Source: Lichina pygmaea (taxonomy: Eukaryota > Ascomycota > Lichinomycetes > Lichinales > Lichinaceae). From it: 64,000 bases of DNA. Numbering within the stretch: the stretch's first letter is position 1; each line of letters begins with the position of its first letter. Of the stretch, positions 7,801-59,547 are shown piece by piece. The position numbers were made by a program, and so were the translations under genes. Below the pieces are notes generated by a model. The model ran no database searches and was not told the origin of the DNA. It saw only the letters and a list, made by a program, of their open reading frames with translations. Location of the stretch: the NCBI GenBank assembly GCA_963422465.1, contig OY730170.1:2108001-2172000 (forward strand), given 5' to 3'.

Positions 7801-8315
7801 TGAAAACAATAATCGACTGTGCCCAGAACACCACCACCCGCTGATTACACAACAAAAGGTTGAAGGGACCAACCCTGGAAAGAGGGGATAAGGTCTACCT
7901 ATCAACAAAAAACCTGCGCTCAAAGCGACCAAGCAAAAAGCTGGATCACGTACGAATCAGACTATTCAAAATCAAGAAGTGCACTGGGAAGGTCAACTAT
8001 TGACTGAGACTACCACAAAAAGCAAGGATACACTGAGTATTCCATGTCTCGCTGCTCAAACCAGCACCCAGCGATGCAGAGATTAAGACAGAATGGAACT
8101 TCGAGGATGACGAAGAAGAGTACGATGTTGAAAGGATCCTGGATAGTTGAAGAAACAGACAGAAGACTGAGTACCTGGTGAAGTGGTTAGGATTTGATGA
8201 AGAGGAAAATTTGTGGAAACCAACCGAGAACTTCAGCCCTGCGATGAACCAGAAGCTGGTGGATTACCACCAAGCAAACTCGCAGCAACCAGGTCCGACA
8301 GAGACAACAGCTTGA
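4809..8315 (+). pseudogene. pol of element A1 (protease, RT, RNase H, integrase, chromodomain)
   Basis: Recognisable blocks in order are: an aspartic protease with a degenerate active-site segment (INSGATGNF), a reverse transcriptase with YIDDVLVYT, an RNase H segment (LETDASDQALGSCLCQ), an integrase zinc-binding HHCC segment and DDE core ([16 protein letters not shown]), and remains of a C-terminal chromodomain. The order protease-RT-RNase H-integrase with a chromodomain defines the chromovirus branch of Ty3/gypsy. It is broken many times and not functional. Confidence 0.85.
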
Positions 8316-8740
8316 GAGAAGCCAAAGTCTCTGAAGAGAAGATGTCCTCAAAGAACAGTGGAGCAGCAGCCTGACTGGCCTCCCCTTCGCAGATAACACA
8401 GAGAGCCTCCTGTTCCTGAGCATCGAGGGATTCCTGATCCTTGATGGTGGACAGCTCACAACAGATGGCATCAGCCTCCTTCTGTGAGAGATGACCCAGC
8501 TGCCAGCGGAGGCGGATCTGCCGGGGAAGCAACTTTGACAATTGGTCATCAGTCTCCTGCAGCTGAGCCTCAAGCTGCTCACGCTCAAGTTCCATCTTCT
8601 TCCATTCTGATTCTGAGAGATGAAGGTTGCAGCGACAACCCTTCTCAACACACCGACAACAAAAAGATGATGCAGAGCTCACGACACACTTGGCGTGGTC
8701 GCGACAACAAGCACCGCATGCGATTTTTGATTCCTTGCCT
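8233..8740 (-). pseudogene. antisense zinc-cluster/coiled-coil frame of element A1
   Basis: A reading frame opposite to pol, lying between the pol end and the 3' LTR. It carries six cysteines in the spacing C-x2-C-x6-C-x8-C-x2-C-x6-C, the same as in A2 and A3 and the pattern of fungal Zn(II)2Cys6 (Gal4-type) DNA-binding domains. A charged heptad-like region follows (SEWKKMELEREQLEAQL), then a tail ending in SSQG. Most of the frame lies outside pol, so it is not simply a shadow of pol. The start is undecided. A role in controlling the element is inference. Confidence 0.7.
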
Positions 8741-8866
8741 ATTTTGCCAATACAACAAGAGAGAAAACTGCGACAACAAGTTCAAGTTGTCTGGCTTTGG
8801 TTCATGACAAAAGAGGAGCAGGAACGAAAAGGATCTGGGGACAGAACTCTTGGAGGGAGGGGATAG

Positions 8867-9399
8867 TGTTAAGGCCTAGGCCGGAACAGCCCAGGTAAGC
8901 GAGGGAGGAGTGTTAGTCATGCGGAACAACATCCGACTGATCCGGTGGACGATCAGGAGCTAAGCGAGGAGCTCGTCCAGTGGACGAGCAGGAGCTAAGC
9001 GAGGAGCTCGTCCAGTGGACAAGCAGGAGCTAAGCGAGGAGCTCGTCCAGTGGACGAGCAGGAGCTAAGCGAGGAGCTCGTCCGGTGGACAAGCAGGAGC
9101 TAAGCGAGGAGCTTGTCTGGTGGACGAGCAGGAGCTAAGCGAGGAGCTCGTCCACGCAAAAGGATGATACCCCTCGAGGAGACCCCCCCCCCTTGGGGCA
9201 TCTGTATAAAGACCCCCCAAAGGGCCCGGAGGGATTAGCTCTCCAGGCTGAACAAACAATACAAACCCATCGTACTGAGACAATAGCACAGGAGAGTTAC
9301 CCCACCTGTCTATTCCTCTACCGAGTCCCTGTCTAGAATCCGCCCTGCGAAGCAACAGACCGAGCCGCCTTCTGTGTGAACCCGGCCCGGCCCGTAACA
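8867..9399 (+). repeat. 3' LTR of A1 with expanded U3 repeat
   Basis: A 533-bp LTR. It is longer than the 5' LTR by exactly 175 bp, which is five extra 35-bp units in the U3. Otherwise it has the same parts as the 5' LTR, with several single-base differences. Confidence 0.92.
8945..9154 (+). repeat. six tandem 35-bp palindromic units in the A1 3' LTR
   Basis: Six units of 35 bp follow head to tail (210 bp). Each is an imperfect hairpin: GTGGACGAGC at one end, GAGCTCGTCCA at the other and AGGAGCTAAGCGAG between. The array lies upstream of the TATA box. The 5' LTR has one unit, so the array expanded, or the other copy contracted, after or during insertion. Confidence 0.93.
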
Positions 9400-9679
9400 T
9401 TTCTATTCTACAAATACACTTCCCAACTTCTCTTCTACACTTCTCCATAAACTACACAGTTAAATTTCCTTCTATGTTTCTTCTCTCAGAACTACACCAA
9501 TGCCTCTGACAACTATTTCTCCAAATTGGATGTTAAGGGCCAGTCCATGTTCACACAGAATGTGGGTGGTCTGCACATCTGGGTAAAGAGGGCAGGGACT
9601 CAATAGATGAATAGCGAGTGGGGTAACTCTCTTGCTAATATTGTTTGTACTTGTTGTTCCACCTGGAGAGCTATCCTCC

Positions 9680-10092
9680 TGTTAAAGGCCAGTCCACGTT
9701 CACACAGAATGTGGGTGGTCCTGTCTTTGACCGAGGAGGGCAGAGACTCAATAGATGAATAGCAAGTGGGGTAACTCTCTTGCTATTGTCGCTCGTAATG
9801 TGCGTTCAGCCTGGAGAGCTATTCTCTCCGGCTATCTGGGTTCTTATATACAGGAGCCTGAGGGGGGGGGGTCCTCCCGAGGGGTATCAGCTTTCTGCGT
9901 GGACGAGCTGGACGAGCTGGTTACACATCGTCCACCTCGTCCACCGGGTCGGGTGAACATTGTTCCTGTGGACGAGCTGGACGAGCTGGTTACACATCGT
10001 CCACCTCGTCCACCGGGTCGGGTGAACATTGTTCCGTGTACCTCTGTACACTCGCTTCGGTCAGCTCAGCCGTTCCGGCCTGGGCCTTAACA
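9680..10092 (-). repeat. 3' LTR of A2
   Basis: TGTTAAAGG to TTAACA as read on the plus strand, 413 bp. It contains two 69-bp tandem U3 units (from 9901 and 9970), each with the palindrome GGACGAGCTGGACGAG ... CGTCCACCTCGTCC. A TATATAAG box for the sense transcript lies around 9843-9851 on the minus strand. The U3 edge faces the antisense gene, whose ATG is 52 bp away; the gap is pyrimidine-rich, a common fungal promoter feature. Confidence 0.93.
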
Positions 10093-10144
10093 CCATCCCC
10101 TCCCTCCAAAGGTTCTGTCCCCAGATCCTCTCGCTTCTCTTACC

Positions 10145-10675
10145 ATGACCCGGACATCTCGTTGTAATCGTCGTGGAGTCCTCGGTTCTCGTGTTGGCAA
10201 GATGGGCAAGGTATCCAAAGTTTCATGCAGCGCATGTCGTCGTGACCGTGCCAAGTGTGTCGTCAGTTCAGAGTCCACATTTTGCGGTCGGTGCCTTGAG
10301 AAGGGTCACCGTTGCGATCTCCATCTCGCGGAGTCGGAGTGGGAGAAGATGGAGCTTGAGCGCACTCAGCTCGAGGCTCAACTGAAGGAGATCGAGGAGC
10401 AGGAGTCTGTTCTCCTTCCTCGCAAACTTCGTCTCCGTCGTCAGTTGGGTGTGTTGTCCAAGAAGGAGGGTGAGGCCATCAAGCGTGAGCTTGCTGCGAT
10501 CAAGGATCAAGAGGATCTCGAGCAGGAGGCTACGCGTGTGGAGTCCCCGCCGCCTTTGGAGGACTTCTTCTCTTCGGAGGCTTTGGCTTCTCTTGAGCCT
10601 TTGTCTCCATCGATCCTGGCTTCTGCGGGTTTTGTCGGTGGAAACTCCGCAGTTTCTCGTTCATCTCAGGGCTGA
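10145..10675 (+). CDS. antisense Zn(II)2Cys6 zinc-cluster protein encoded by element A2 (176 aa)
   Basis: An intact frame running opposite to pol. Residues about 26-58 hold a Gal4-type zinc cluster: C-S-A-C, the basic loop RRDRAK, C, eight residues, C-G-R-C, LEKGHR, C. This matches C-x2-C-x6-C-x8-C-x2-C-x6-C with the usual basic first loop and glycine in the second. A long charged helix follows (about residues 65-130, heptad-like, probably a dimerising coiled coil), then a serine-rich tail. About 385 of 531 bases lie outside pol; only the last 146 overlap the pol 3' end. Zn2Cys6 dimers usually bind short paired motifs, and the adjacent LTR is full of palindromes. No activation domain is evident. 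The regulatory role is inference; the coding nature is supported by conservation in A1 and A3. Confidence 0.8.
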   Translation: MTRTSRCNRRGVLGSRVGKMGKVSKVSCSACRRDRAKCVVSSESTFCGRCLEKGHRCDLHLAESEWEKMELERTQLEAQLKEIEEQESVLLPRKLRLRRQLGVLSKKEGEAIKRELAAIKDQEDLEQEATRVESPPPLEDFFSSEALASLEPLSPSILASAGFVGGNSAVSRSSQG

Positions 10676-12047
10676 AGTTCTCGGTGGGTTCCCACGAGTT
10701 CTCCTCATTGTCATACCCTAACCACTTGACCAGGTATTCGATTTTCCGTCCGCTTCTCCGGCTGTCTAGGATCCTTTCGACATCGTACTCTTCTTCGTTG
10801 TCCTCGAAGTGCCATTCTGTTTCGATTGCTGCGTCGCTGGGTGCTGGCTCGAGCAGCGAGACATGGAATACTCGGTGTATCCGTGCCTTTTTTGGCAGTC
10901 TCAGTCGGTAGTTGACTTCTCCAGTGCGCTTCTCAATCTCAAACAGTCCGATTCGTACATGATCCAGCTTTTTGCTTGGTCGCTTCGAGCGCAGGTTTTT
11001 TGTTGACAAATAGACCTTATCCCCCCTCTCCAGGGTTGGTCCCTTCAACCTTTTGCTGTTTAGGTGGTGGCTTGTTGTCTTTTGTGCAGATTCAATTGCA
11101 GTCTTCATTTCCTCATGCATAGCAGTGAGTTTTTCGACGTTTGTTGAAGTGCCACTTCCAGCCGCCATCGCTTCCCAGCGGGGGTTTCTGCCGTAGTTCG
11201 CAAAGAACGGCGTCATGCCTGTCACGCTGTGTTGCTGATCGTTGTACACAAACTGAGCCATTGGTAGCAGTTCTACCCAATCGTCCTGTCGGTGGTTGAC
11301 GTAGTGGCGTAGGTACTGTTCCATCGTCTGGTTTGTTCTCTCAGTTTGTCTGTCTGTTTGTGGATGGTAGGCAGTAGACATCCTTGTGTCTATCCCTAGC
11401 TGTCTTGTCCACGTGTTCCAGAATTTCGAGGTGAAGAGTTTGTCTCGATCCGAGATAATCTTCGTGGGTAGCCCTCGCTGGCTAACCAATTCTTTGAGTA
11501 GGACATTGGCGAGTTCGCTTGCTGTTCCTGTCTCTCGCCACAGGATCAGGTGAGCGTATTTGGTGAGTTTGTCAACAACCACCAAGATACTGTCATATTT
11601 CACCTTTGTTACCGGGTCCTCTGACCTCGGCAGCTTCACCACAAAATCCATTGTGATAGTATCCCAAGCCGCTTCTGGGAGGTCTATTTGTTGACTCTCT
11701 CCATAGGGTTTGTGGCGTGACGGTTTGTTTTTCGCACACTCTTCGCAGTTGCGAATAAATTCCGTCACTTTCCGCTTCATTCCGTTGAAGTGGTAACATC
11801 TCCGGATCTTTTCCAGGGTCTTGTCTCGCCCAGGATGTCTGTGTAGAGGTCCATCGTGATGTTGTCGAATCACGTCCTCTTGTGCGCTCTCTGGCACTTC
11901 TTCCTTGTTTGTGGCCGCAACGTTGTGGCCTAGGGTCAGGAGTGCACCCATTTCTTCAGTTCTCGCTAACTGAGGTTGAGCATAGACCAGAGTTTGTCCT
12001 TTTGTCACTAGGATTGGGCGCTCTTCTGTCGTGTCGTCTGTCGTCAT
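10530..12047 (-). CDS. integrase and chromodomain part of A2 pol
   Basis: The C-terminal part of pol, 505 codons open. The integrase zinc-binding segment is near HHDGPLHRHPG ... CEECAKNKPSRHK. The DDE core includes [22 protein letters not shown] and [16 protein letters not shown]. The chromodomain near the end has DVERILD, EYLVKWLGYDNEENSWEP. It inserts element DNA into the genome; the chromodomain usually guides it to chromatin marks. The end overlaps the antisense gene at 10530-10675. Confidence 0.9.
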   Translation of the reverse strand: MTTDDTTEERPILVTKGQTLVYAQPQLARTEEMGALLTLGHNVAATNKEEVPESAQEDVIRQHHDGPLHRHPGRDKTLEKIRRCYHFNGMKRKVTEFIRNCEECAKNKPSRHKPYGESQQIDLPEAAWDTITMDFVVKLPRSEDPVTKVKYDSILVVVDKLTKYAHLILWRETGTASELANVLLKELVSQRGLPTKIISDRDKLFTSKFWNTWTRQLGIDTRMSTAYHPQTDRQTERTNQTMEQYLRHYVNHRQDDWVELLPMAQFVYNDQQHSVTGMTPFFANYGRNPRWEAMAAGSGTSTNVEKLTAMHEEMKTAIESAQKTTSHHLNSKRLKGPTLERGDKVYLSTKNLRSKRPSKKLDHVRIGLFEIEKRTGEVNYRLRLPKKARIHRVFHVSLLEPAPSDAAIETEWHFEDNEEEYDVERILDSRRSGRKIEYLVKWLGYDNEENSWEPTENFSPEMNEKLRSFHRQNPQKPGSMETKAQEKPKPPKRRSPPKAAGTPHA

Positions 12048-15586: not shown

Positions 15587-15624
15587 CGTATTGAGCCGGT
15601 GTCCTATGTGTTAGAGGCTGAAAC

Positions 15625-16037
15625 TGTTAAAGGCCAGTCCACGTTCACACAGAATGTGGGTGGTCCTGTCTTCGACCGAGGAGGGCAGGGACTCAATAGA
15701 TGAATAGCAAGTGGGGTAACTCTCTTGCTATTGTCGCTCGTAATGTGCGTTCAGCCTGGAGAGCTATTCTCTCCGGCTATCTGGGTTCTTATATACAGGA
15801 GCCTGAGGGGGGGGGGTCCTCCCGAGGGGTATCAGCTTTCTGCGTGGACGAGCTGGACGAGCTGGTTACACATCGTCCACCTCGTCCACCGGGTCGGGTG
15901 AACATTGTTCCTGTGGACGAGCTGGACGAGCTGGTTACACATCGTCCACCTCGTCCACCGGGTCGGGTGAACATTGTTCCGTGTACCTCTGTACACTCGC
16001 TTCGGTCAGCTCAGCCGTTCCGGCCTGGGCCTTAACA
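15625..16037 (-). repeat. 5' LTR of A2
   Basis: A 413-bp LTR almost identical to 9680-10092, including two 69-bp U3 units. TTCAGCCT on the plus strand at 15750-15757 (predicted RNA start, AGGCTGAA on the minus strand) pairs with the octamer at 15615-15622 just inside the element, two bases from the LTR edge: a self-priming arrangement. Confidence 0.93.
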
Positions 16038-16904
16038 CCTCCCCAGCTATCTGGGTTCTCTTATATACAGGAGCCTGAGGGAGAGGGTTCTCCCCAAGAG
16101 GTATCAGCTTTCTGCATGGTAGAGTTGGCAGAGATGGTTATGTCTCTGCCACCTCTGCCACCGAGTCGGGTGAACGTTGTTCCGTGTACCTCTGTACACT
16201 CGCTTAGGTCAGCTCAGCTGTTCCGGCCTGGGCCTTAACATTGGAGAACAGTCTGGCTGGAACAACTAACCACCAACCAAGATCTCTCAAAGAAGAGTCT
16301 ACAGGAAGTTTTGCACAACGAATAGGAAGCCAGATGGCAGGTAAGCAGAAGAAAATGTTGTTCTATTTGGGATATGTTTACCAGAAGCCCACAGAAGAAA
16401 AACCTCAATATCTTCAAAGATTTGGGGAAGGCTGAGTCTAGTCTATTCCTCTAAATTCTGTCAGCAAGAATAGGACTGGCCAGTTTTCTTTTCAGAGCAA
16501 ATGTCCCAGATTTCAACTTCCCCATATACTCTTGTGGTTTTGGAGAAGAAACAGCCCAACATATTACTTTTTTCTGTAACAAATTTTCAAACCAAAGACA
16601 ACAAGCTCAATTCCCTTTAGAAGATTTCTCATCTATCTTATTCTCAACCAAGCTACTTCCCAAACTTCTCTTCTGGTTTATGTTCTTGAAAAGACTTGAC
16701 CAGTTCAACCTTGCCCACCAACTCTCTCTCTGATCTTTACCAAGTTAACTGTTTGTTTTAACAAATAGCTACATGTACAAATTTCCTCAGCTACTGCAGC
16801 TCCAGTTTTTTATCTCTTCAAAGGTTTTCTGGAGAAATAAACATGTACTTAGAAGTTCTGTATGGCTCTACAGCTAAATCAATGTAAGAATAAAATAAAT
16901 AAAT

Positions 16905-17382
16905 TGTACTGGTGGCAGACAGTGCTGACTATAGCTGTTGCGCGGTGCCGTACGGAGTAGGCTAAAGCGGAACTGAGCCAAAAGACTACTATGTCTGGCT
17001 TAGTGCCCGACATCTCCGTACTAGCGATAGATAAGTGCGGCTGCACCCGCCTGCTTAGTCAGGTGACAAGGCTGACTAAGCGCCCGGTCGGGCGCCTAGC
17101 TCCTGACAATAGCTTGCAAAGAGAGTGGGAGGTACATAGGTACCACAAGGCACAGGTACCAGAGTACAAGTGATGGTCTGTAAACACAATCACGTGGTAC
17201 GTAAAAACTGAGATCAAGTGACATGCGGCTCTGCTCCTAAAATTTAGCGCCAAGACTTCCAGTAGCTGTCCACAATTCGACATTGCACTCTCCACAACAG
17301 ACGAAGTGCTCCTGATCGACGCCTGTCATAATAGGGTGTAGTGCTTGGAGATTGTAGTGCTGAGTGCCCCGGCGACGTGAGA
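16905..17382 (+). promoter_or_regulatory. upstream region and probable promoter/5' UTR of the poly(A) polymerase gene
   Basis: Unique, CG-containing sequence between the LINE tail and the start codon. An in-frame stop at 17332-17334 closes the frame upstream of the ATG. No clear TATA box or upstream exon was seen. The repeat array ends only about 480 bp before the gene, so its promoter must be short or partly within repeats. Confidence 0.5.
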
Positions 17383-20238
17383 ATGGTTTCTCGTTGGTCT
17401 CGCGATGCTGCTCGACCACCACCACCGCGAGACCCACCGCCCCCACTTCCGCCCGGTCCGCCGCCACCCACGTATGCCTTTACAGGCAAACAAGGGTTTG
17501 CGCCAACGGAGTTCTTGTTCCGTGCGGGCGATGGCACAGCGCCTCGGTTTCCAAGGCATGATCGTCCGCCGCACGCGTCGTTGCGTGGCCGTCATGGTCC
17601 TAGCAGGCCTTTGCCAACCGATGACCACAGGCAGAGAAGGGACCGGAGAAGGCATGACGATAGACGGCGAGACCGCTATCAGCCCTTCGCTCCGTCCACC
17701 CGGCCACTCCTCAATTCCGCACGTGGTGGAACGCCGGAGCAGTTCTCTGCCATGGTTGAGAACAGTCATGGCGAGACCAAGTTTATGCTGGACAAGGACG
17801 TCTCCGACAGCGACGAACAAGAGATGGAGGTTGATTCGTCGCGGGGGTCTAGCGTCGATGCTCATGAGAATGGCTATGGCGATGGGCGTTCTCGTGGGCT
17901 TGACCGGGAGCCGGCCCCGCAGGATGACTGCGGCGGCGAGCCGCCCCGCAAGAAGCAACTGCGTGAGGAAGAACTGCATCAGCCGACCCGAGAATCTTCA
18001 CGACCCAGATGGTCGAATCCGGATCCCTACACTGCCTTGCCACCACCGGACGAGTCGCAGAGGAAAAAGAGGGACGTCGTGAAGCTCATTCGAAAGGCAC
18101 GTAAACCGGCAGAGCGGACTGGGAAGCCCAGCAGCGCCGTCGGCACTAACGATGACTTCATCGCTCTGAGTTTCGATGACGAGGTCGTGGAGAGTGAGGG
18201 ACTTGAGCCTAGACGGGACCTCTCGGACGAGGCCCGGAGCTTGCGGTCGAAGGCCTTCGGAGGGGCGAGGTCCTTCGACCGCCGTGACCACCTCGGGGAG
18301 CAGAGCACCAACCAGGCCCAAGTAGAGGAGAATCTCGGGGCGCCATACACACCAGTTGACGTCTGGCCTCCTACCAGCGTCGACGAGGCTCTTGGAAACC
18401 GGAAGCGTACTCACGACGATCGGATAGTCGACAAGCCCACAAAGAGAGGTGCAGCAAAGAACGAAGATGGCCAAGTCCTGAGCGCGTGGAGGGCGCACGG
18501 CGGTGCGGCCGTTCCTTGGGGCGGCGTGGACCATTCTCGGACGGCCAACATGGGCTTCTGGCTGCACAAGGAAATCTGCGATTGGTTTGCCTATGTCAGG
18601 CCACGGAAATTCGAACAAGTGGTTCGCGAGGATTTGGTACGACGGCTACGGACCGCCATGGCGGGCATGTACGCGGACTGCGACGTTCGGTGCTTCGGCT
18701 CCTTTGCCTCGGGTCTCTACCTGCCGACGGCGGACATGGATCTCGTCTGCGTGTCCCAGGCCTTTCTCGCCACGGGCCGGCCGAAGGAAGGCCTCGCTGG
18801 CAAGAACAGGCACATGCATTTGATCGCCAACTACCTGAAGTCCTTGGAAATCCCTCGGCGAGGCTCCGTCGTGGTCATCGCCCAGGCGAAGGTCCCCATC
18901 ATCAAGTTCATCGACCGAGCAACGGGCGTCAAGGTCGACCTGTCGTTCGAGAACAGTACGGGCATCGTCGCGGTTGATACTTGTTTGGCTTGGAAGGCCC
19001 AGTTCCCCGCCATGCCCATTCTTGTCATGCTCGTGAAGCAGTTCCTGGCCATGCGTGGCCTGGACGAGGTGCGCACCGGTGGCATGGGGGGCTTTGCCGT
19101 GACATGCTTGGTCACGAGTCTGTTGCAGACCATACCTCAGGTGCAGAGCGGAAACCTAGTACCCGAACGCCACCTCGGTGAGACGCTAATGGAGTTCCTC
19201 GACCTGTACGGTAACCGCTTCAACCTGGAGGGCGCCGTCATCCGCCTGAATCCTCCGGGCTACTTTGAAAAGGTAAGCGGCTGCCCTGACCCCCCCTTTT
19301 TGCGTGCGTATGCCTGTATGTGTTTGTTTTGGGGGGGGGGGGGGGGGGGGGGGGGGGACCGTGGCCGGATAGGAACTGACCCTCTGCGACGTATAGCGCC
19401 TTGCAATGCAGTTCCGGAATCATACGAAATCCACGCGTCTTTCGATCGAAGATCCGAATCGTCCAGATAATGACATCACCGCCGGTACCAAGGGGATCAG
19501 GCTCATTGTTCATTGCTTCGCCCGCGCGTACGAGGCTCTGCAGGGGAAGATGTTCGAACTCCGGCAGGCCGATTTTTCGCGGCGCCAAGGGCAGAGCATC
19601 CTGTGGACCATCCTCGGAGGTGACTACTCGTCTTTTGACGAGCAGAGGGAGAGCCTGCGACGAGTCTATGAGCAGCGGTGGGTCGCGGTTGGCTCTCGGC
19701 GTTCCGGGACGTTCCTTGCTGACCGGAAGCGTCCGTAGGCATAAGGGGGATCTGGGGCTGTCTCCGGAGCCCCCAGGTACGGTGCAGCGGCAGGTTGGCG
19801 GCTCCCACTTGGCAGGCGGTTCAATGAACTGACCGTCATCGCAGCGTCACTCAGCCTCACCTCTCACGTTCGAATGTGGCCAAGCCTTCCAAGGGTAGAT
19901 CTAAGAAGCGTAGCAAAACTATCAAGACCATCACCGCCAAGGGGTTCGATGGGTCAGGTGATGTCGATCCCATAGTGGCCGCCACGGCCAAAACAGAAAC
20001 CAAGAAGGAGAAGGAAACTCGGTTGAACCGAGGGCGATCTGAAAGATTTCGCAAGAAGTATCCGCAGGTCGAGGACGTGCCCCATGCGATGAACGCTAAA
20101 GAGCAGAAGCGGCTCATGTTCAAGAACGGGCTCCTGGAAAAGATGACTAAGCAGAAGAAGCAGGATGAGTTGAAGCGTGCGAGACGTGCGGCGCGCAAAG
20201 AAGCGGAAGGAGAGGCAGAAGTGAAGCATCTGGCCTGA
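17383..20238 (+). CDS. TRF4/Cid14-type non-canonical poly(A) polymerase, three exons (17383-19272, 19397-19677, 19845-20238)
   Basis: The host gene. The predicted 854-residue nuclear enzyme adds short oligo(A) tails to aberrant or noncoding RNAs to send them to the exosome, as the catalytic subunit of a TRAMP-like complex. The first 400 residues are proline-, arginine- and acid-rich and disordered. The nucleotidyltransferase core has GS at 439-440, catalytic D451 and D453 (TADMDL) and third carboxylate D519 (KVDLSF). A GGMGGF segment lies near 567, and the PAP-associated domain has DPNRPDNDI from residue 649. The third exon adds a lysine-rich tail (RKKYPQVEDVP) of the kind seen in fungal homologues. 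ATG 17383 is the first after an in-frame stop. Splicing keeps phase (total 2565 nt, divisible by three). The third exon could be mistaken for a separate gene, but it lacks an ATG and joins exactly in phase. Confidence 0.92.
19273..19396 (+). other. intron 1 of the TRF4-like gene, with a 27-G run
   Basis: A 124-bp intron, GTAAGC ... TATAG, with branch-like GAACTGAC ending at 19380. It joins GYFEK to RLAMQFRN in phase 0, where homologues continue into the PAP-associated domain. It holds an uninterrupted run of 27 G at 19331-19357, which could form G-quadruplex structure in the transcript and is prone to length errors in sequencing. Confidence 0.88.
19678..19844 (+). other. intron 2 of the TRF4-like gene
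   Basis: A predicted 167-bp intron, GTGGGT ... CGCAG, with branch-like GAACTGAC at 19826-19833, the same octamer as in intron 1. It joins RRVYEQ to VTQPHLS through a split arginine codon. Without splicing, the frame would stop at 19736. Confidence 0.75.
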
Positions 20239-24012: not shown

Positions 24013-25732
24013 CCTGCAACGACTCGAACCTCCACGTGGTGCAGGCTGGGAACCTCGGGGCAGTCGATGGCGGGTGGCTTCCCAGACTGCTTGTAGTCGC
24101 TGCACCAAGAGCTAATCAAGTCACCAGTCGAGCTGCTGGTGTTGCGGAGTGACGGGCCACCGGAGGTGTTGCGCAGACACCCTGGACACCCCTGTGAAAC
24201 AGCTACAGCAGAACAGAGGACTGCGACCAAGCTTGGGAGATGAAAACCACCCAACAGACAACTACCGTGTACACTACAGTCTGAAGCCAGCCCCACAGCT
24301 GGTGGATGTGAAGTCTAGACGTCTGATAGGGCACCTCTGGAGTAGTCGAGAGGAGTTCTTGTCAAGTCACCCTCCTAGCAGAGCCTCCAGCTAACAAGTG
24401 AGGATCTACTAGGGGGGGGAGTGGCCTTGGCACCGCGGCGTTGTTAATCGAACAGGGACCACCTGTTAAAGAAGGAGAGTGGTTGTACAAGGAGACATCA
24501 CCACTCCAGTGCCTAAGAGCTGTGTGATAGCCAAAGTGCTGGCTTGATGGTTTTGCCTAAGGCCTTGCCACGAAGTCTCTTCGTACAATCCACAATCTGG
24601 GGCTGGGGGACTGGGTTATCCAGTGGGCCAACAGGTGCAACCAAGACCCCACAGGTGACAGTGGACCAAGGAAACCTCCTCCCTACTTGGTTAGTGGGCT
24701 GGAAAGGCAGCCCTGCAGGTGCTGGCACAGCCTGCAGGTCTGTAAGGCCTGCAAGGCATGGTCGGCCTTTGTACAAGAGATCTGCGAAGGTAACACGAAA
24801 CAGTTAACAACTGTGAGGTGTGGCATATAATGGCAGTGACGGAGGTAGAGCCTGGGCCTACTACGAGACTGTCTATATGGCCTGAGAGGATGGATGCGCA
24901 TGCTGGTTTGTACGGAGTGCAGGCTTAGGCTGCTGTTACGACCCAGGAGGAACACAGTCTTTATATACTCACAGAAAGCAGCAGACAGGATACTGGACGG
25001 AAGTACCAGACAGCGTGACACGGGAACCGGTCACGTGACCGGCGAGACAAACCAGGGGGTGCTCGCCGCAGCATGCATATGCACGAACAAGTGAGCAAAG
25101 TGAGCAGAGCTCACCCAGCTCGCCGCAGCGTGCATGAAAAGTGAGCAAAGTGAGCAGAGCTCACCCAGCTCACCGCAGCGTGCATGAAAAGTGAGCAAAG
25201 TGAGCAGAGCTCACCCAGCTCACCGCAGCGTGCATGAAAAGTGAGCAAAGTGAGCAGAGCTCACTCTGCTCACAAACTGGGCACTATATAGCCAGGCGAT
25301 AGTTCCCCTATGGAACGATCGTCTTCAACTTATGTTGTGATCCAGACAACTAGATCTACTTCAATACAATCCTTTTGTACGAAGCCGTTGATCAGGTGTC
25401 ACCACCACCACATTCCACCAAACCCCTTCGCGCTCCTTGACACTCCTCTCCTGCGAGAACCAACCCGCCTTCCGCCTCTCGCCCTAATCCTATACTCGGA
25501 TAGGACGGTACGGTACGGACTGCAACAGCTGCAAGCAACAAGCTCAGAGAGCAAACTACAGTTGGAGCGTGGGCTCTGGGCTGGTGACCCAGCGCTCTGA
25601 AGCAGGATCCCAGGGGTGAGCACGTACAGCAGAATGCAAGAGACCTCAGGACTGTGGGAAAGTGTGGTAGAGACTCTGTGGGGGGGTGCCAACTCTACAC
25701 TATGTTCTGGCATAGTACGACTGTGGCTCTTT
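24013..25732 (+). repeat. unknown repeat E, copy 1, fused to a LINE 3' part and split by a solo LTR
   Basis: About 1.1 kb (not counting the LTR at 24934-25527) of GC-richer sequence, also present 5'-truncated at 63098-63974. It contains a frame ending DVKSRRLIGHLWSSREEF and then SHPPSRASS before a stop, then a run of G and GAGTGGCC, then about 700 bp without a clear gene, ending in ACGACTGTGGCT in both copies. The G run after a stop resembles a polypurine tract before an LTR, so E could be the 3' part of an unrecognised LTR element, or a transcribed RNA copied by the LINE. I do not recognise its protein. Confidence 0.6.
24934..25527 (+). repeat. solo LTR of family B' inside repeat E
   Basis: A 594-bp LTR, TGTTACG to GCAACA, with target duplication GCTGC at 24929-24933 and 25528-25532. 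The other E copy shows the uninterrupted site. The U3 holds about four 50-bp tandem units (about 25090-25290) with the palindrome GTGAGC, GTGAGC, GCTCAC, GCTCAC. It also has a TATATAG box near 25293 and GTCTTCAA about 30 bp after. An outward TATATAAAG lies at the U3 edge on the minus strand. Confidence 0.9.
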
Positions 25733-34468: not shown

Positions 34469-35117
34469 TGTTGCAGTCTGTACTGTGCTGTCCTAACTGA
34501 GTATAGGATTAAGGGCAAGATGCGGAAGGCGAGTTGGTTCTTGCAGGAGAGGAGTGTCAAGGAGTGCGAAGGGGTTTGGTGGAACGTGGTGGTGGTGACA
34601 CCTGATCAATGGCTTTGTACAAAAGAGTGTTGTATTGAAGTAGATCTAGTTGTCTGGATCACAACATAAGTTGAAGACAATTGTTCCATAAGGGAACTAT
34701 CGCCAGACTATACAGTGCTGGCCTGTCAAGATGATCAAGATTGTCTTGACAGTCTTGATGTCAAGACAGGTGAGATTGTCTTGACGTATCATGCACTCTG
34801 TGTTGAGACAGGTGAGATTGTCTTGACAGTCCCACCATGTTATGCACCCTGTGTCGAGACTGGTGAGATTGTCTTGACATGTCATGCATGCTGTGTTGAG
34901 ACAGGTGAGATTGTCTCAATACTTCCTGCACCCTGCATCAAGACTGGTGAGATTGTCTTGATGCTTCATGCATGCTGCGTCAAGCTACCCGTGTTTGTCT
35001 TGACAGTCACATGACCTTTTGTCAGTTTGGTCACTTGACTTTTCCATAGTGTCCTCTTGTCTGGCTTGTGGCCTGTCTGCTTATAAATAAGTGGCTCTCT
35101 TCCCAGGGATCGTAACA
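34469..35117 (-). repeat. 3' LTR of B2 with U3 palindromic array
   Basis: A 649-bp LTR. About five imperfect 45-50-bp units (about 34726-34990) carry the palindrome TCAAGAC-TGGTGAGATT-GTCTTGA and a CATGCATG spacer. The U3 edge has TATAAATAA at 35082-35090, reading into the element on the strand opposite to pol, toward the antisense frame. Confidence 0.9.
35082..35090 (+). promoter_or_regulatory. TATA box facing the antisense frame of B2
   Basis: TATAAATAA lies 72 bp before the ATG at 35162, close to the U3 edge and reading rightward. A TATAAAG or TATATAAAG in the same place and direction is seen in the LTRs at 1620-2100 and 24934-25527, so the element is conserved between LTR subtypes. Confidence 0.6.
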
Positions 35118-35161
35118 CTATCCTCCTCTCCTTCATTCATTGTCCTGATGAATTCTTGAGT

Positions 35162-35476
35162 ATGTCTGCAAGATCACATGCCTCTGCTTACCGAAGACAA
35201 CTGGTAGCCCAGATCTGTGATCATAACTTTGTGTCACTTGCTCTGTGTGACTTCTGTGTTTTGAACCACAAGCCCTGTTTCCAAATGTCTGACAACAACG
35301 ATAAGTTGAAGTGCGCTGAATGCACTCATCATGGGAAGTCCTGTGTGTCACTTTCTTGGGAGTTGTTGAACATAACCCAAGATAATCTTCGTGAGGATGT
35401 GGCTGCTGAAGAGGTGACACATGACGCACTCTTCAAACAGCTTGCTGCAGTGCAAGTTTGTCTGTCTCAGAAGTGA
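35162..35476 (+). pseudogene. antisense zinc-cluster frame of element B2
   Basis: A frame opposite to pol, starting 44 bp from the 3' LTR. It encodes six cysteines as C-D-F-C, VLNHKP, C, eleven residues, C-A-E-C, THHGKS, C, which is C-x2-C-x6-C-x11-C-x2-C-x6-C, again the Zn(II)2Cys6 pattern. A helical charged region follows (NLREDVAAEEVTHDALFKQL). The first loop is less basic than in A2. Outside the cysteines there is little similarity to the family A protein, so the gene is either very old in the lineage or was gained twice. It is decayed in this copy. Confidence 0.65.
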
Positions 35477-35639
35477 AAAGTCCTTGAAAGTGCTGAGAGT
35501 CAAGCGAAGAAGAAGCTCCAGTGCCTTGTTGCTGAAATGGAGGTGGATGGTGAAGACTTGGCGGTGACAGTTATTGATGTGTCCACACTGCAGGCTGAGC
35601 TGTTCAGTCCTGCTTCCACTGGAACTGCTGCAGGAGGAG

Positions 35640-38600
35640 CTGGCAGTTCGTGAGGTTCCTAAGTGGTTCCCAGGTATTTTCCAAGTCTGGGTAGTTTTTC
35701 CACTTGACAAGGTATCACTGACCTTTTCTCTTCAGGATGTGTTTGACCTTGAATTCCTGTTCTTTCTCTGGTTGGTAATAAAATGTTTTCTGCAAGGGTG
35801 TGCTCTGGTCAGCTAATTCAATCATTGAGATGTGAAAGTTTGGATGTACCTGAGCGTCTCTCAGTAGTCACAGTCTGATGTTGACTGGTCCAGTTCTTTC
35901 TTCAACTGGAAATAGTCTGACTTTAACATGGTCCAGTTTCCTTGTTCTTGGTTTCTTGACTTTCCAATTTTTTGTGAGGAGGTAGACTTCATCCCTCTTC
36001 TTCAGCTGAGGTGCCATTTTTGATTTTTTGTCTATTTGGTGTTGTATCTTTTCTGAGGTCTCTTGAAGTTAGTGCCTCATCATCGTGTGTGTTTGTTGTA
36101 GAAGCTTGTCATGTTGGAGTGCTTTCTCTGTGTTTGGTGAAGCTCTGCTTGGCATTCTGATGTTTGCGTGTCACCCAAAATTGGCAAAGAATAGTGATTC
36201 CTTTGTTGAGTCTGATCTGTGCTGGTTAATTGCCAGTTGTGCCACTGGTAATAGCTGTACCCAATTGCTGTGGGTCTGGTTGATGTAATGCCACAAATAA
36301 GTCTCCAGGACTTGGTTTACTTGCTCTGTCTGGCTGTCAGTTTGTGGGTGATAGGCTGTAGACATTTTGGGTTTTGTTCCTATGGCTGCACTGATTGTTT
36401 TCCAGTAGTTAGATATGAAGAGCTTGTCTCTGTCAGTAATGACTGTGAAAGGAACTCCGTGGTCCCTGACCAATCTGTGCAGTAGGAGGTGTCCCAACTG
36501 CTCTGCTGTGTGGGTTTCCTTGAATAGTACTGCTATTAGGTATTTTGTGAATCTGTCCACAATCACTATAATTGAGTTGTAGGTGATTCCGGTGACTGGG
36601 TCTTTGGACTTGGGTAGCTTTGTGATGAAGTCTATTGACATGTCTTCTCAAGGGCCTCTTGGTATCATGTTGAGGTGTTCTTCTCTGTATAGTTTATGTC
36701 TTCCATGTTTGTTTTTCTGGCATAGTAGACATTTGCTGATGTAGCTTGTAACATGTTGTCAGAGGTTGATGACATTGTTCTCTGCCTGTTGGATAAGGTC
36801 TGTGGTTTTGGTGATTCCGGGGTGACCATGTGCTGGATTATTGTAGTAGTTCCTTATTAGTTCTTCAGTATCTTCTGCTGTGAGCTTGTTGATCTGTGGT
36901 TGAGGCACCAGGTTTCCTTGCTGGTCCTGCTGTAAGATTGTTCCTTGGTGTTCATCATCTTCCATGTGGTTTTTTTGTCAGCTTAGTGTGTCTGCTCTCC
37001 CATTGTCTTGTCCAGGGGTGTACAAGATCTTGAACTTTTGTTACTCTAGGAGTTCAGCCCATCTGACTTGTTGTCTGTTCAGCTTCTTGGTTGTTGTGAA
37101 CATTGTCAGATTCTTGTAGTCTGTGAGAATGGTGAGTTCGGAACTGCTTTCCGCATACACTCTCCAGTGTTCAAGTGTGTTGACAACTACCAGTAGCTCT
37201 TTGTTGTGGATATCATAGTTTTGTTCTGCTTGTGACATTTTGTGTGAGTAGTAGGCAACTGGGTGCTATTTACCATCTGCCTGTTGGCATAGACATGCTC
37301 CCACCACTTGGTCTGAAGTATCTGTTTTGATTTATGTTGGCTGGCCTGTCTTGAAGTTGAGAAGAACTGGTTCCTTGGCGTAAGTGTCCTTGAGCTGTTA
37401 GAATGCTTTTTGTTATCTCTCCGTCCACCAGTACTCCATATTCTTCTTTGTGAGTTCGGTCAGTGGTGTTGCTGTCTGTGAGTAGTTCTTGATGAACTGT
37501 CAGTTGAAGTTGGCAAATTCTAGGAAGGCTTGTACTTCCTTGACTGATGTCGGTGTTGGCTATTGCTGAATCACTTTGACTTTCTCAGAGTCAATCTTGA
37601 TCTCTTCAATTCCTATGATGTATCCGAGGAATTCAACTTCCAGTTTGTTGAACTTGTATTTCTTCAGGTTGAGCTTAAGCCCTACTTTTTGTAGGTATCG
37701 TAGAACATCCTTCACATGTTTGGTATGTTCCTGTTGTGTTTTTGAGTAGACAAGAATATTGTCTAGGTAGGCAATAGCTGTTTAGTCCAGGTGTGCTCTG
37801 ATGATGTTGTTGATCAATGCCTGACATGTTGCTGGTGTGTTTGTGAGTCTGAATGGCATAACCACATACTTGTAGTGTCTGTATCAGGTTCTGAAAGCTG
37901 TCTTCTATTCTTCTCCTTTTTTCATGTGTATCAGGTTGTATACTCCTTTCAAGTCCAGCTTGGTGAAGATTGTAGCTTGGCTGATCCTGTCTTGCAATTT
38001 GTTCACATTTGGCAACAGATATCAGTTCTTGATGGTAATGTTGTTGAGTTTCCTGTAATCCACACAAAGTTGAAGACTTCTGTCTTTCTTTGGTGCAAAT
38101 AGTATCGGGTATCATGCTGGCGATTGAGATTCTCGAATGAAACTCTTTTTCAGGTTTTCCTCCAGGTACTTGTGAAGTACTTGGAGCTCTTTCTCTGATA
38201 ACTGGTAAATTGGTCCAAATCCTGGCTCTGTCCCTGGTTGCAACTTGATCTCATGATCCCAAGTTTGGTGCTTAGGCAACACTACTGTTGTTGTCTCTTC
38301 CTGAAAGAGGTTATCATACCCAGGTCAGTACTCTTCAGAGATCTCCAGAGGGTTAACAACTTCCTCTCTCTTCATCTCTGACTGTTTGGCCACCTGGTTC
38401 TGGGGTATGCCTGTCAAGGCAGACCTCTTCTCTTGAGAGTCATCCTTTCTGTCAGTGAGGTTCCACTGAGGACTCCTTCCCTCATCTGTCCACACCTTCT
38501 GTGGCTGGTAACAGGTCTGAGCTGTGTTGTTAGTGCAGTTCCTAAATGTGAGTACTCCTGTCTTCCAGTTAACAACTGGGTTGTGCTTCTTTAGCCAAGG

Positions 38601-58913: not shown

Positions 58914-59037
58914 CTATCCCCTCCCTCCAAGGATTCTGTCCCCAGATCCTTTTCGTTCCTGCTCCTCTTTTGTCATGAACTGAGATCAGACAACTTGAAC
59001 TTATTGTCGCAGTTCTCTTTCTTGTCACATTGGCAAA

Positions 59038-59547
59038 ATAGGCAAGGAATCAAAAATCACATGTGGTGCTTGTCGTCATGACCACGCCAAGTGTGTCGTG
59101 AGCTCCGCATCATCTTTTTGTTGTCAGTGTGTTGAGAAAGGTCATCGCTGTGACCTTCATCTCTCGGAATCAGAATGGAGGAAGATGGAACTTGAGTGTG
59201 AGCAGCTTGAGGCTCAGCTGCGAGAGACCAATAACCAATTGTCAAAGTTGCTTCCCTGGCAGATCTGTCTCCGCCAGCAGCTGGGTCATCTCTCTCAGAA
59301 AGAGGCTGATGCCATCTGTCGTGAGCTGTCAGCCATCAAGGATCAAGAGTCCCTTGATGCTCAGAAGCAGGAGGCTCTCCATGTTATTTGCGAACAGGAG
59401 GCCAGTCAGGCTGCTGCTCCACTGTCCTTTGCGGATGTCTTCTCCTCAGAGACTTTGGCTTCTCTCAAGCTGTTGTCCCTGTCAGACCTGGTCGCTGCAG
59501 GTTTGCTTGGTGGTAATCCACCAGCTTCTGGTTCATCACAGGGCTGA
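59038..59547 (+). pseudogene. antisense zinc-cluster/coiled-coil frame of element A3
   Basis: A frame opposite to pol, starting near the 3' LTR. It shows the full six-cysteine pattern C-x2-C-x6-C-x8-C-x2-C-x6-C (C-G-A-C ... C ... C-Q-C ... C), the charged helix SEWRKMELECEQLEAQL, and the SSQG C-terminus, in the same order as in A1 and A2. All six cysteines survive in this decayed element. The start is not decided. Confidence 0.7.

Follow-up and report, generated by a model that had tools for sequence, protein, structure and literature searches.

The 64,000-nucleotide stretch of the Lichina pygmaea genome analyzed here (contig OY730170.1, positions 2,108,001 to 2,172,000 of the forward strand; the window) contains retrotransposons that carry an additional gene between the end of pol and the 3' long terminal repeat (LTR), encoded antisense to gag-pol. 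Element A2, which has this gene in intact form, is encoded on the window's minus strand and has recognizable gag, reverse transcriptase/RNase H, and integrase-chromodomain frames. Its chromodomain follows the integrase (Pfam Chromo, 54.3 bits), which identifies the element as a chromovirus. The antisense protein of A2 contains six cysteines with the spacing C-X2-C-X6-C-X8-C-X2-C-X6-C, and its start codon is located ~46 nt inward from the edge of the 3' LTR, with the corresponding distance being 44 nt in element B2 and 43 nt in a third family, C. The last pol frame of A2 ends at position 10530, and therefore 128 of the 176 antisense codons lie outside pol (Table 1).

Table 1. Antisense genes, LTRs, and U3 (unique 3' region) arrays in the window, with positions counted from its first nucleotide; pLDDT, predicted local distance difference test.
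Feature	Position	Strand	Remarks
A2 antisense zinc-cluster gene	10145..10675	+	intact, 176 aa; ATG 10145, stop 10675
A2 stop-free stretch with zinc-cluster spacing	10091-10672	+	
A2 six-cysteine cluster	10226..10315	+	residues 28-57; sequence, AlphaFold2 and Foldseek
A2 long helix (predicted), 3' of cluster	10331..10540	+	residues 63-132, presumed coiled coil; AlphaFold2, block pLDDT mostly 87-97
A2 last pol frame (integrase, chromodomain)	10530..12047	-	146 nt overlap with antisense gene
A2 3' LTR	9679..10098	-	approximate edges
A2 5' LTR	15624..16044	-	99.3% identity to 3' LTR, 422-column alignment
A2 U3 array	9899..10035		69 bp × 2.0; TGGACGA half-sites in both orientations
A2 U3 array, copy in 5' LTR	15844..15980		69 bp × 2.0
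A1 stop-free stretch with antisense zinc cluster	8236..8781	-	gene has stop at codon 8
A1 U3 array	8941..9154		35 bp × 6.1; inverted TGGACGA half-sites; upstream of sense TATA at ~9205
A3 stop-free stretch with antisense zinc cluster	58999..59544	+	gene has stops at codons 3 and 8
B2 antisense zinc-cluster gene	35162..35650	+	broken by TGA at codon 105
B2 stop-free stretch with zinc-cluster spacing	35087-35473	+	
B2 U3 array	34759..34972		42 bp × 4.9
B2 antisense TATA-like site	35082..35089	+	TATAAATA; inside LTR, 80 nt upstream of antisense ATG
Family C LTR	24934..25528	+	full-length gene-bearing elements elsewhere in genome
Family C U3 array	25080..25273		50 bp × 3.9; GTGAGC half-sites in both orientations
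Family C antisense-direction TATA-like site	24960..24967	-	in LTR; L086 counterpart 77 nt upstream of antisense ATG

An initial annotation of the window had proposed antisense six-cysteine frames in elements A1, A2, A3, and B2, intact in A2 and lying mostly outside pol. Six-frame translation of the window yields 384 stretches that are free of stops and 60 residues or longer; exactly these four have the zinc-cluster spacing, which occurs in none of 1920 residue shuffles. The intact A2 frame, with RRDRAKC in its first loop, and its location mostly outside pol were also described correctly. In A1, A3, and B2 the spacing is present but the reading frames are broken by stops. The annotation had further claimed the same pattern with little other similarity in family B, which is placed among the chromoviruses only by a chromodomain-like C terminus. 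The six-cysteine cluster does occur in family B and the proteins of A and B/C are just 20-23% identical, but the B spacing is C-X2-C-X6-C-X11-C-X2-C-X6-C, with a long loop of X11 rather than X8.

The gene is present in many copies in the genome (32.47 Mb in 8 contigs). These copies were located by similarity to the antisense gene, so that the presence of the gene among them is partly built in. The A2 protein gives at least 150 scored matches among 285 candidates. Among the matches listed, 61 have at least 85% identity (A2-type), and in 53 of these the matched part is free of stops; others form a second group near 59-70% identity. With the B2 protein, at least 150 scored matches were obtained among 509 candidates. 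Family C was found because an LTR-like stretch in the window has a tandem array, as in A and B. Its LTR (about 594 bp) forms seven pairs 5935-5941 bp apart among 40 scored genome matches. Of the 12 loci fetched, 5 have an antisense frame with the cysteine spacing beside this LTR; the remaining ones include 5' LTRs. At locus L086 the family C antisense frame is intact and encodes 166 residues, and the pol frame that it overlaps contains a chromodomain (Pfam Chromo, 58.2 bits). At least 150 copies were scored for family C, eight being stop-free among those listed; the family's protein corresponds to database protein P0083, and the pol C termini of A and C are 41% identical. All element copies read display heavy CpG decay, with CGN changed to TGN or CAN, resulting in Arg-to-Cys and Arg-to-His changes and TGA stops, a pattern suggesting that repeats in this fungus undergo mutation directed at CpG. 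Of 30 A2-type loci, 29 lack stops in the antisense frame and 7 in the pol C terminus, a contrast that may partly reflect the choice of copies by their antisense frame.

Selection on the antisense frame was assessed from the ratio of nonsynonymous to synonymous change (dN/dS) in the first 30 A2-type loci, 20 A1-type loci in list order together with two window copies, 30 B loci from the top of their list (28 of them gap-free in the comparison with C), and 5 C copies. CpG decay dominates within groups, where pairs of A2-type copies have 16.7 differences, 3.7 of which are of non-CpG type, and the informative ratios are therefore those between groups. Raw within-group ratios, in which the antisense frame of A2 is not favored, were dropped as main evidence. 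Outside pol, the antisense frame has a dN/dS of 0.200 between A2-type and A1-type copies (30 × 22, 660 pairs; codon bootstrap 0.11-0.34), with the other five frames at 1.20, 2.01, 1.18, 0.45, and 1.67. The pol C terminus outside the overlap has a similar ratio in its own frame, 0.258 (0.17-0.39). Between B and C (28 × 5, 140 pairs) the antisense frame outside pol gives 0.134 (0.08-0.23) and the other frames 0.27-1.55; with CpG-type differences masked these values are 0.135 and 0.29-2.01. Ranking of the copy lists by protein similarity may lower dN somewhat, but does not account for the contrast among the frames. The next-lowest ratio is that of frame -1, the third positions of which face the third positions of the antisense frame, and which contains stops in all 30 A2, 22 A1, and 30 B copies. 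Frame -2 of A1 is stop-free outside pol in 11 of 22 copies, yet its dN/dS is far above 1. Within groups and with CpG masked, the antisense frame has the ratio 0.20 in A1 (next frame 0.29) and 0.316 in B (next frame 0.334). Inside the overlap, the antisense frame is at 0.44, frame -1 at 0.35, and the pol frame at about 1.1-1.2 (1.15, 0.52-2.93). The tail of pol is thus unconstrained in its own frame and does not hold the sequence of the overlap. As the initial annotation had argued, the antisense frame is not a shadow of pol, and we are highly confident that it is a protein-coding gene under purifying selection.

Zinc clusters of the Zn2Cys6 (Gal4-type) class are defined by the spacing C-X2-C-X6-C-X5-12-C-X2-C-X6-8-C. 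The antisense proteins fit this definition, with a long loop of X8 in A and X11 in B, and the distant relatives are alike in this respect. Loss of the cysteines, which the initial annotation had named as a result that would speak against the gene, is rare: they are retained in 487 of 492 copy-by-cysteine cells in 82 copies (30 A2-type, 22 A1-type, and 30 B). Because CpG decay has little effect on cysteine codons, conservation between families is the stronger argument. The cluster is found at a matching place in the A and B/C proteins in spite of their low overall identity, and hhalign aligns the cluster and helix of the two profiles with a probability of 54% and an E-value of 1.2e-4, making a common origin of these proteins likely from their sequences. 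The corresponding first-loop residues are RRDHAKC in A1, and the less typical VLNHKPC in B and VLRGRPC in C. AlphaFold2 models of the A and B/C proteins have mean pLDDT values of 69.8 and 68.8. In both, two short helices are predicted at the CXXC pairs, as well as one helix of 63-70 residues C-terminal to the cluster (residues 63-132 in A and 66-128 in B/C, pLDDT mostly >87), a putative dimerization helix. When compared with the PDB by Foldseek, the A model matches Zn2Cys6 DNA-binding domains in 8 of 8 cases (Pho7, Leu3, Put3, Gal4, Hap1, AlcR) and the B/C model in 6 of 7, the seventh being a CBF3 chain, although all of these matches are weak and none has an E-value ≤ 0.001. Searching the PDB by sequence profile gave no match for B/C and two weak, unrelated ones for A, and a search of BFVD gave five weak matches, all unrelated. 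The proteins of L040 and L086 have no match to PF00172 at E ≤ 0.1. A short acidic and hydrophobic tail completes the antisense protein and, judging from its composition, may be an activation region.

Related proteins occur outside this genome. Protein searches returned 19, 58, and at least 161 relatives, the largest having 8000 candidates scored and the best 120 listed. One relative is found in Watsoniomyces obsoletus, of the class Lichinomycetes, and several on short contigs share 39-48% identity with P0083 and retain the cluster, helix, and tail. A search of viral and genome contig collections with a B-type profile found no relative. The L. pygmaea genome also has 12 matches to DUF3716 (L081-L084 and eight further places), nine of them above the cut-off and four inspected individually, in host-like six-cysteine genes whose spacing recalls that of the antisense cluster. 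DUF3716 was considered as the source of the cluster; P0083 matches it at E 0.055, below the cut-off, and from their sequences the DUF3716 genes are possible distant relatives.

The LTRs of all three families contain tandem arrays in U3. In four of the four LTRs examined, the array is situated between the LTR edge on the side of the antisense gene and a TATA-like site in the sense direction, which is weak in B. Half-sites with the motif TGGACGA are common to A1 and A2, in both orientations in each, despite their different array units, and other motifs are found in B and C. TGGACGA occurs at three or more LTR sites in 27 of 30 A2-type and 17 of 22 A1-type copies and is absent from the part comprising the antisense gene and pol, and 28 of 30 B copies have TCTTGAC at three or more sites. 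The LTRs of A1, A2, B, and C contain 16, 7, 18, and 10 inverted repeats with arms of 7 bp. In 300 shuffles the means were 0.70, 0.50, 1.21, and 0.77 and the highest counts 8, 9, 8, and 7, so that the count for A2 lies within its shuffle maximum. The arrays of A2 and C follow a common plan, in which a pair of direct half-sites faces a pair of inverted ones, with 9 bp between the members of each pair. TATA-like sites in the antisense direction are present in the B2 and C LTRs; none was seen in the family A LTRs examined. An exchange of the antisense gene and LTR between A1 and A2 as one module was considered and dropped, because gag shows the same degree of divergence as these two parts, and the central part of pol shows greater similarity.

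Elsewhere in the window, the regions at 21-34 kb and 41-58 kb contain many nested and mostly broken copies that, from their open reading frames (ORFs) and repeats, look like long interspersed nuclear elements with reverse transcriptase frames. A host gene at 17341-19470, amid repeats, encodes nucleotidyltransferase and PAP-associated domains (Trf4/Cid1-like).

The initial annotation had proposed an element-encoded zinc-cluster regulator. A protein-coding gene of this type is indicated by the constraint on its codons, its presence in a third family, the predicted fold, and its position, and from these we infer the regulatory role. Taken together, the constraint, cluster, helix, position, and U3 arrays point to the antisense protein being a DNA-binding regulator of its own LTR, with a probability of roughly 0.55. 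In this process, the 3' LTR would drive the zinc-cluster gene in the antisense direction, and the protein would homodimerize through its long helix, enter the nucleus, and bind half-sites of the U3 arrays. Binding to U3 of the 5' LTR could then activate transcription of the element as well as production of the protein itself, much as a divergent promoter responds to an activator of the Gal4 type. Activation of gag-pol is proposed because the 5' LTR carries the same U3 in front of the gag-pol TATA. We tentatively favor an activator over a repressor because the arrays precede this TATA like an upstream activating sequence, and because of the acidic and hydrophobic tail. It is also conceivable, as a general model that we hold with some reserve, that fungal chromoviruses encode their own Gal4-type activator in antisense, paired with an array of its binding sites in U3 of both LTRs, one sequence thus acting as a divergent promoter for gag-pol from the 5' LTR and for the activator from the 3' LTR, with cluster and array changing together from family to family.

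Several observations weigh against this interpretation. Tandem arrays are common by themselves, and the antisense proteins do not reach the Pfam gathering score of 21 bits for PF00172 (Zn_clus), with 16.6 bits for A2 and 18.7 bits for the best relative, P0113. Openness of the antisense frame alone is weak evidence, as the chance of an open frame at equal length and dinucleotide make-up is 0.047 for A2 and 0.055 for A1 per given frame, which is not rare, and 0.002 for B. The comparison of synonymous and nonsynonymous change that the initial annotation had called for reveals purifying selection between the A subfamilies and between B and C, but it fails within the young A2 group alone, where the antisense frame with CpG masked has a ratio of 0.58 and frame -0 one of 0.44, with few informative sites. 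Furthermore, frame -1 carries part of the signal. The last three points could suggest that there is no gene, just a chance antisense frame or the shadow of another coding frame, but this is very improbable given that two independent comparisons yield their lowest ratios outside pol in the antisense frame, that frame -1 is interrupted in every copy analyzed, and that the cysteine spacing is retained in three families.

A repressor, or copy-number brake, would lower gag-pol transcription through contact with either the U3 arrays or the transcription machinery, much as HBZ counteracts the sense program of its virus. The anatomy, with an antisense gene beside the 3' LTR and arrays in U3, also fits this role, and the antisense frame outlasts the pol C terminus in A2-type loci, albeit in copies picked by antisense-frame similarity. 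We nonetheless consider repression unlikely, since the tail appears more like an activation region and a selfish element would profit less directly from a brake. Less likely still is an accessory protein that acts after transcription or at integration by binding nucleic acid or chromatin, for example in nuclear import, target choice, or packaging. A zinc cluster with a long helix would suit many such roles, and proteins from plant antisense ORFs are discussed as accessory factors in the part of a review that deals with them (PMC7264820), but the pairing of the gene with inverted-repeat arrays in U3 in three families would be left unexplained. The same co-occurrence of gene and arrays, along with the lack of any sign of a host target, makes it improbable that the protein is directed at host genes, such as a silencing factor, with the arrays serving as unrelated enhancers. 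Host promoters are a possible target for a Zn2Cys6 protein, and the genome also has the six-cysteine DUF3716 genes.

Retrotransposons are usually regarded as dependent on host factors for their transcription. If the antisense protein does regulate its own LTR, an element-encoded factor and its array of sites would form a self-contained gene circuit with a logic like that of viral transactivators. This model would supply a function for antisense genes such as brtn, and some short Zn2Cys6 genes predicted in fungal genomes might be retrotransposon genes. The relatives in Watsoniomyces and on metagenome contigs would then point to an old and overlooked third gene of ascomycete retrotransposons.

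The source study for brtn, a gene of the Boty element of Botrytis cinerea, is reportedly that of Zhao et al. 2011. Boty resembles the elements described here in being a fungal Ty3/gypsy element that has a Pol with a chromodomain and, antisense to gag-pol, an extra gene between pol and the 3' LTR (PMC7264820, PMC8365987, PMC4227169). The passages of these sources on brtn contain neither U3 arrays nor a selection test. A 2020 review describes no clear similarity of such antisense proteins to other proteins in its section on them (PMC7264820), and a zinc cluster was thus not then known to its author; our comparison with BRTN is by description only. Plant Ty3/gypsy elements have antisense ORFs between pol and the 3' LTR as well, namely gene23 of Grande, that of RIRE2, and TRP28 of Retand, with the Grande product being nuclear and transcribed from its own promoter (PMC7264820, PMC11963269). 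For the antisense protein of Retand, a study from 2025 proposes that it binds DNA and has a regulatory role (PMC11963269). As far as the passages concerned describe them, the plant ORFs differ in having other domains and no zinc cluster, with arrays that are internal rather than in U3, and Retand belongs to a non-chromovirus lineage. The view of the initial annotation that such a regulator is not a standard part of these elements therefore needs qualification, since the antisense gene itself has precedents in brtn and the plant ORFs. For the zinc cluster it holds within our searches of the open-access literature, which showed no antisense retrotransposon gene of this kind, although papers beyond it could describe one. 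These searches likewise showed neither a proof of selection at the codon level for such a gene nor its occurrence together with inverted-repeat arrays in U3, and these features, like the zinc cluster, thus seem to be new.

HBZ of human T-cell leukemia virus type 1 is a basic leucine zipper (bZIP) protein that is expressed in antisense from the 3' LTR and counteracts the sense program. The antisense protein of the L. pygmaea elements is similar in its probable origin at the 3' LTR and as a presumably dimerizing protein of DNA-binding type, but HBZ is a bZIP protein of a primate retrovirus and no relative. HBZ is also named in the part of the Retand study that bears on antisense genes (PMC11963269). 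Compared with Gal4-type factors, the antisense protein falls below the Pfam cut-off, has 160-200 residues, is encoded by a retrotransposon, and is associated with half-sites that lack CGG. It nevertheless shares with Gal4, Put3, Hap1, Leu3, and Pho7 the cysteine spacing, the plan of a cluster followed by a presumed coiled coil, and the weak matches in fold.
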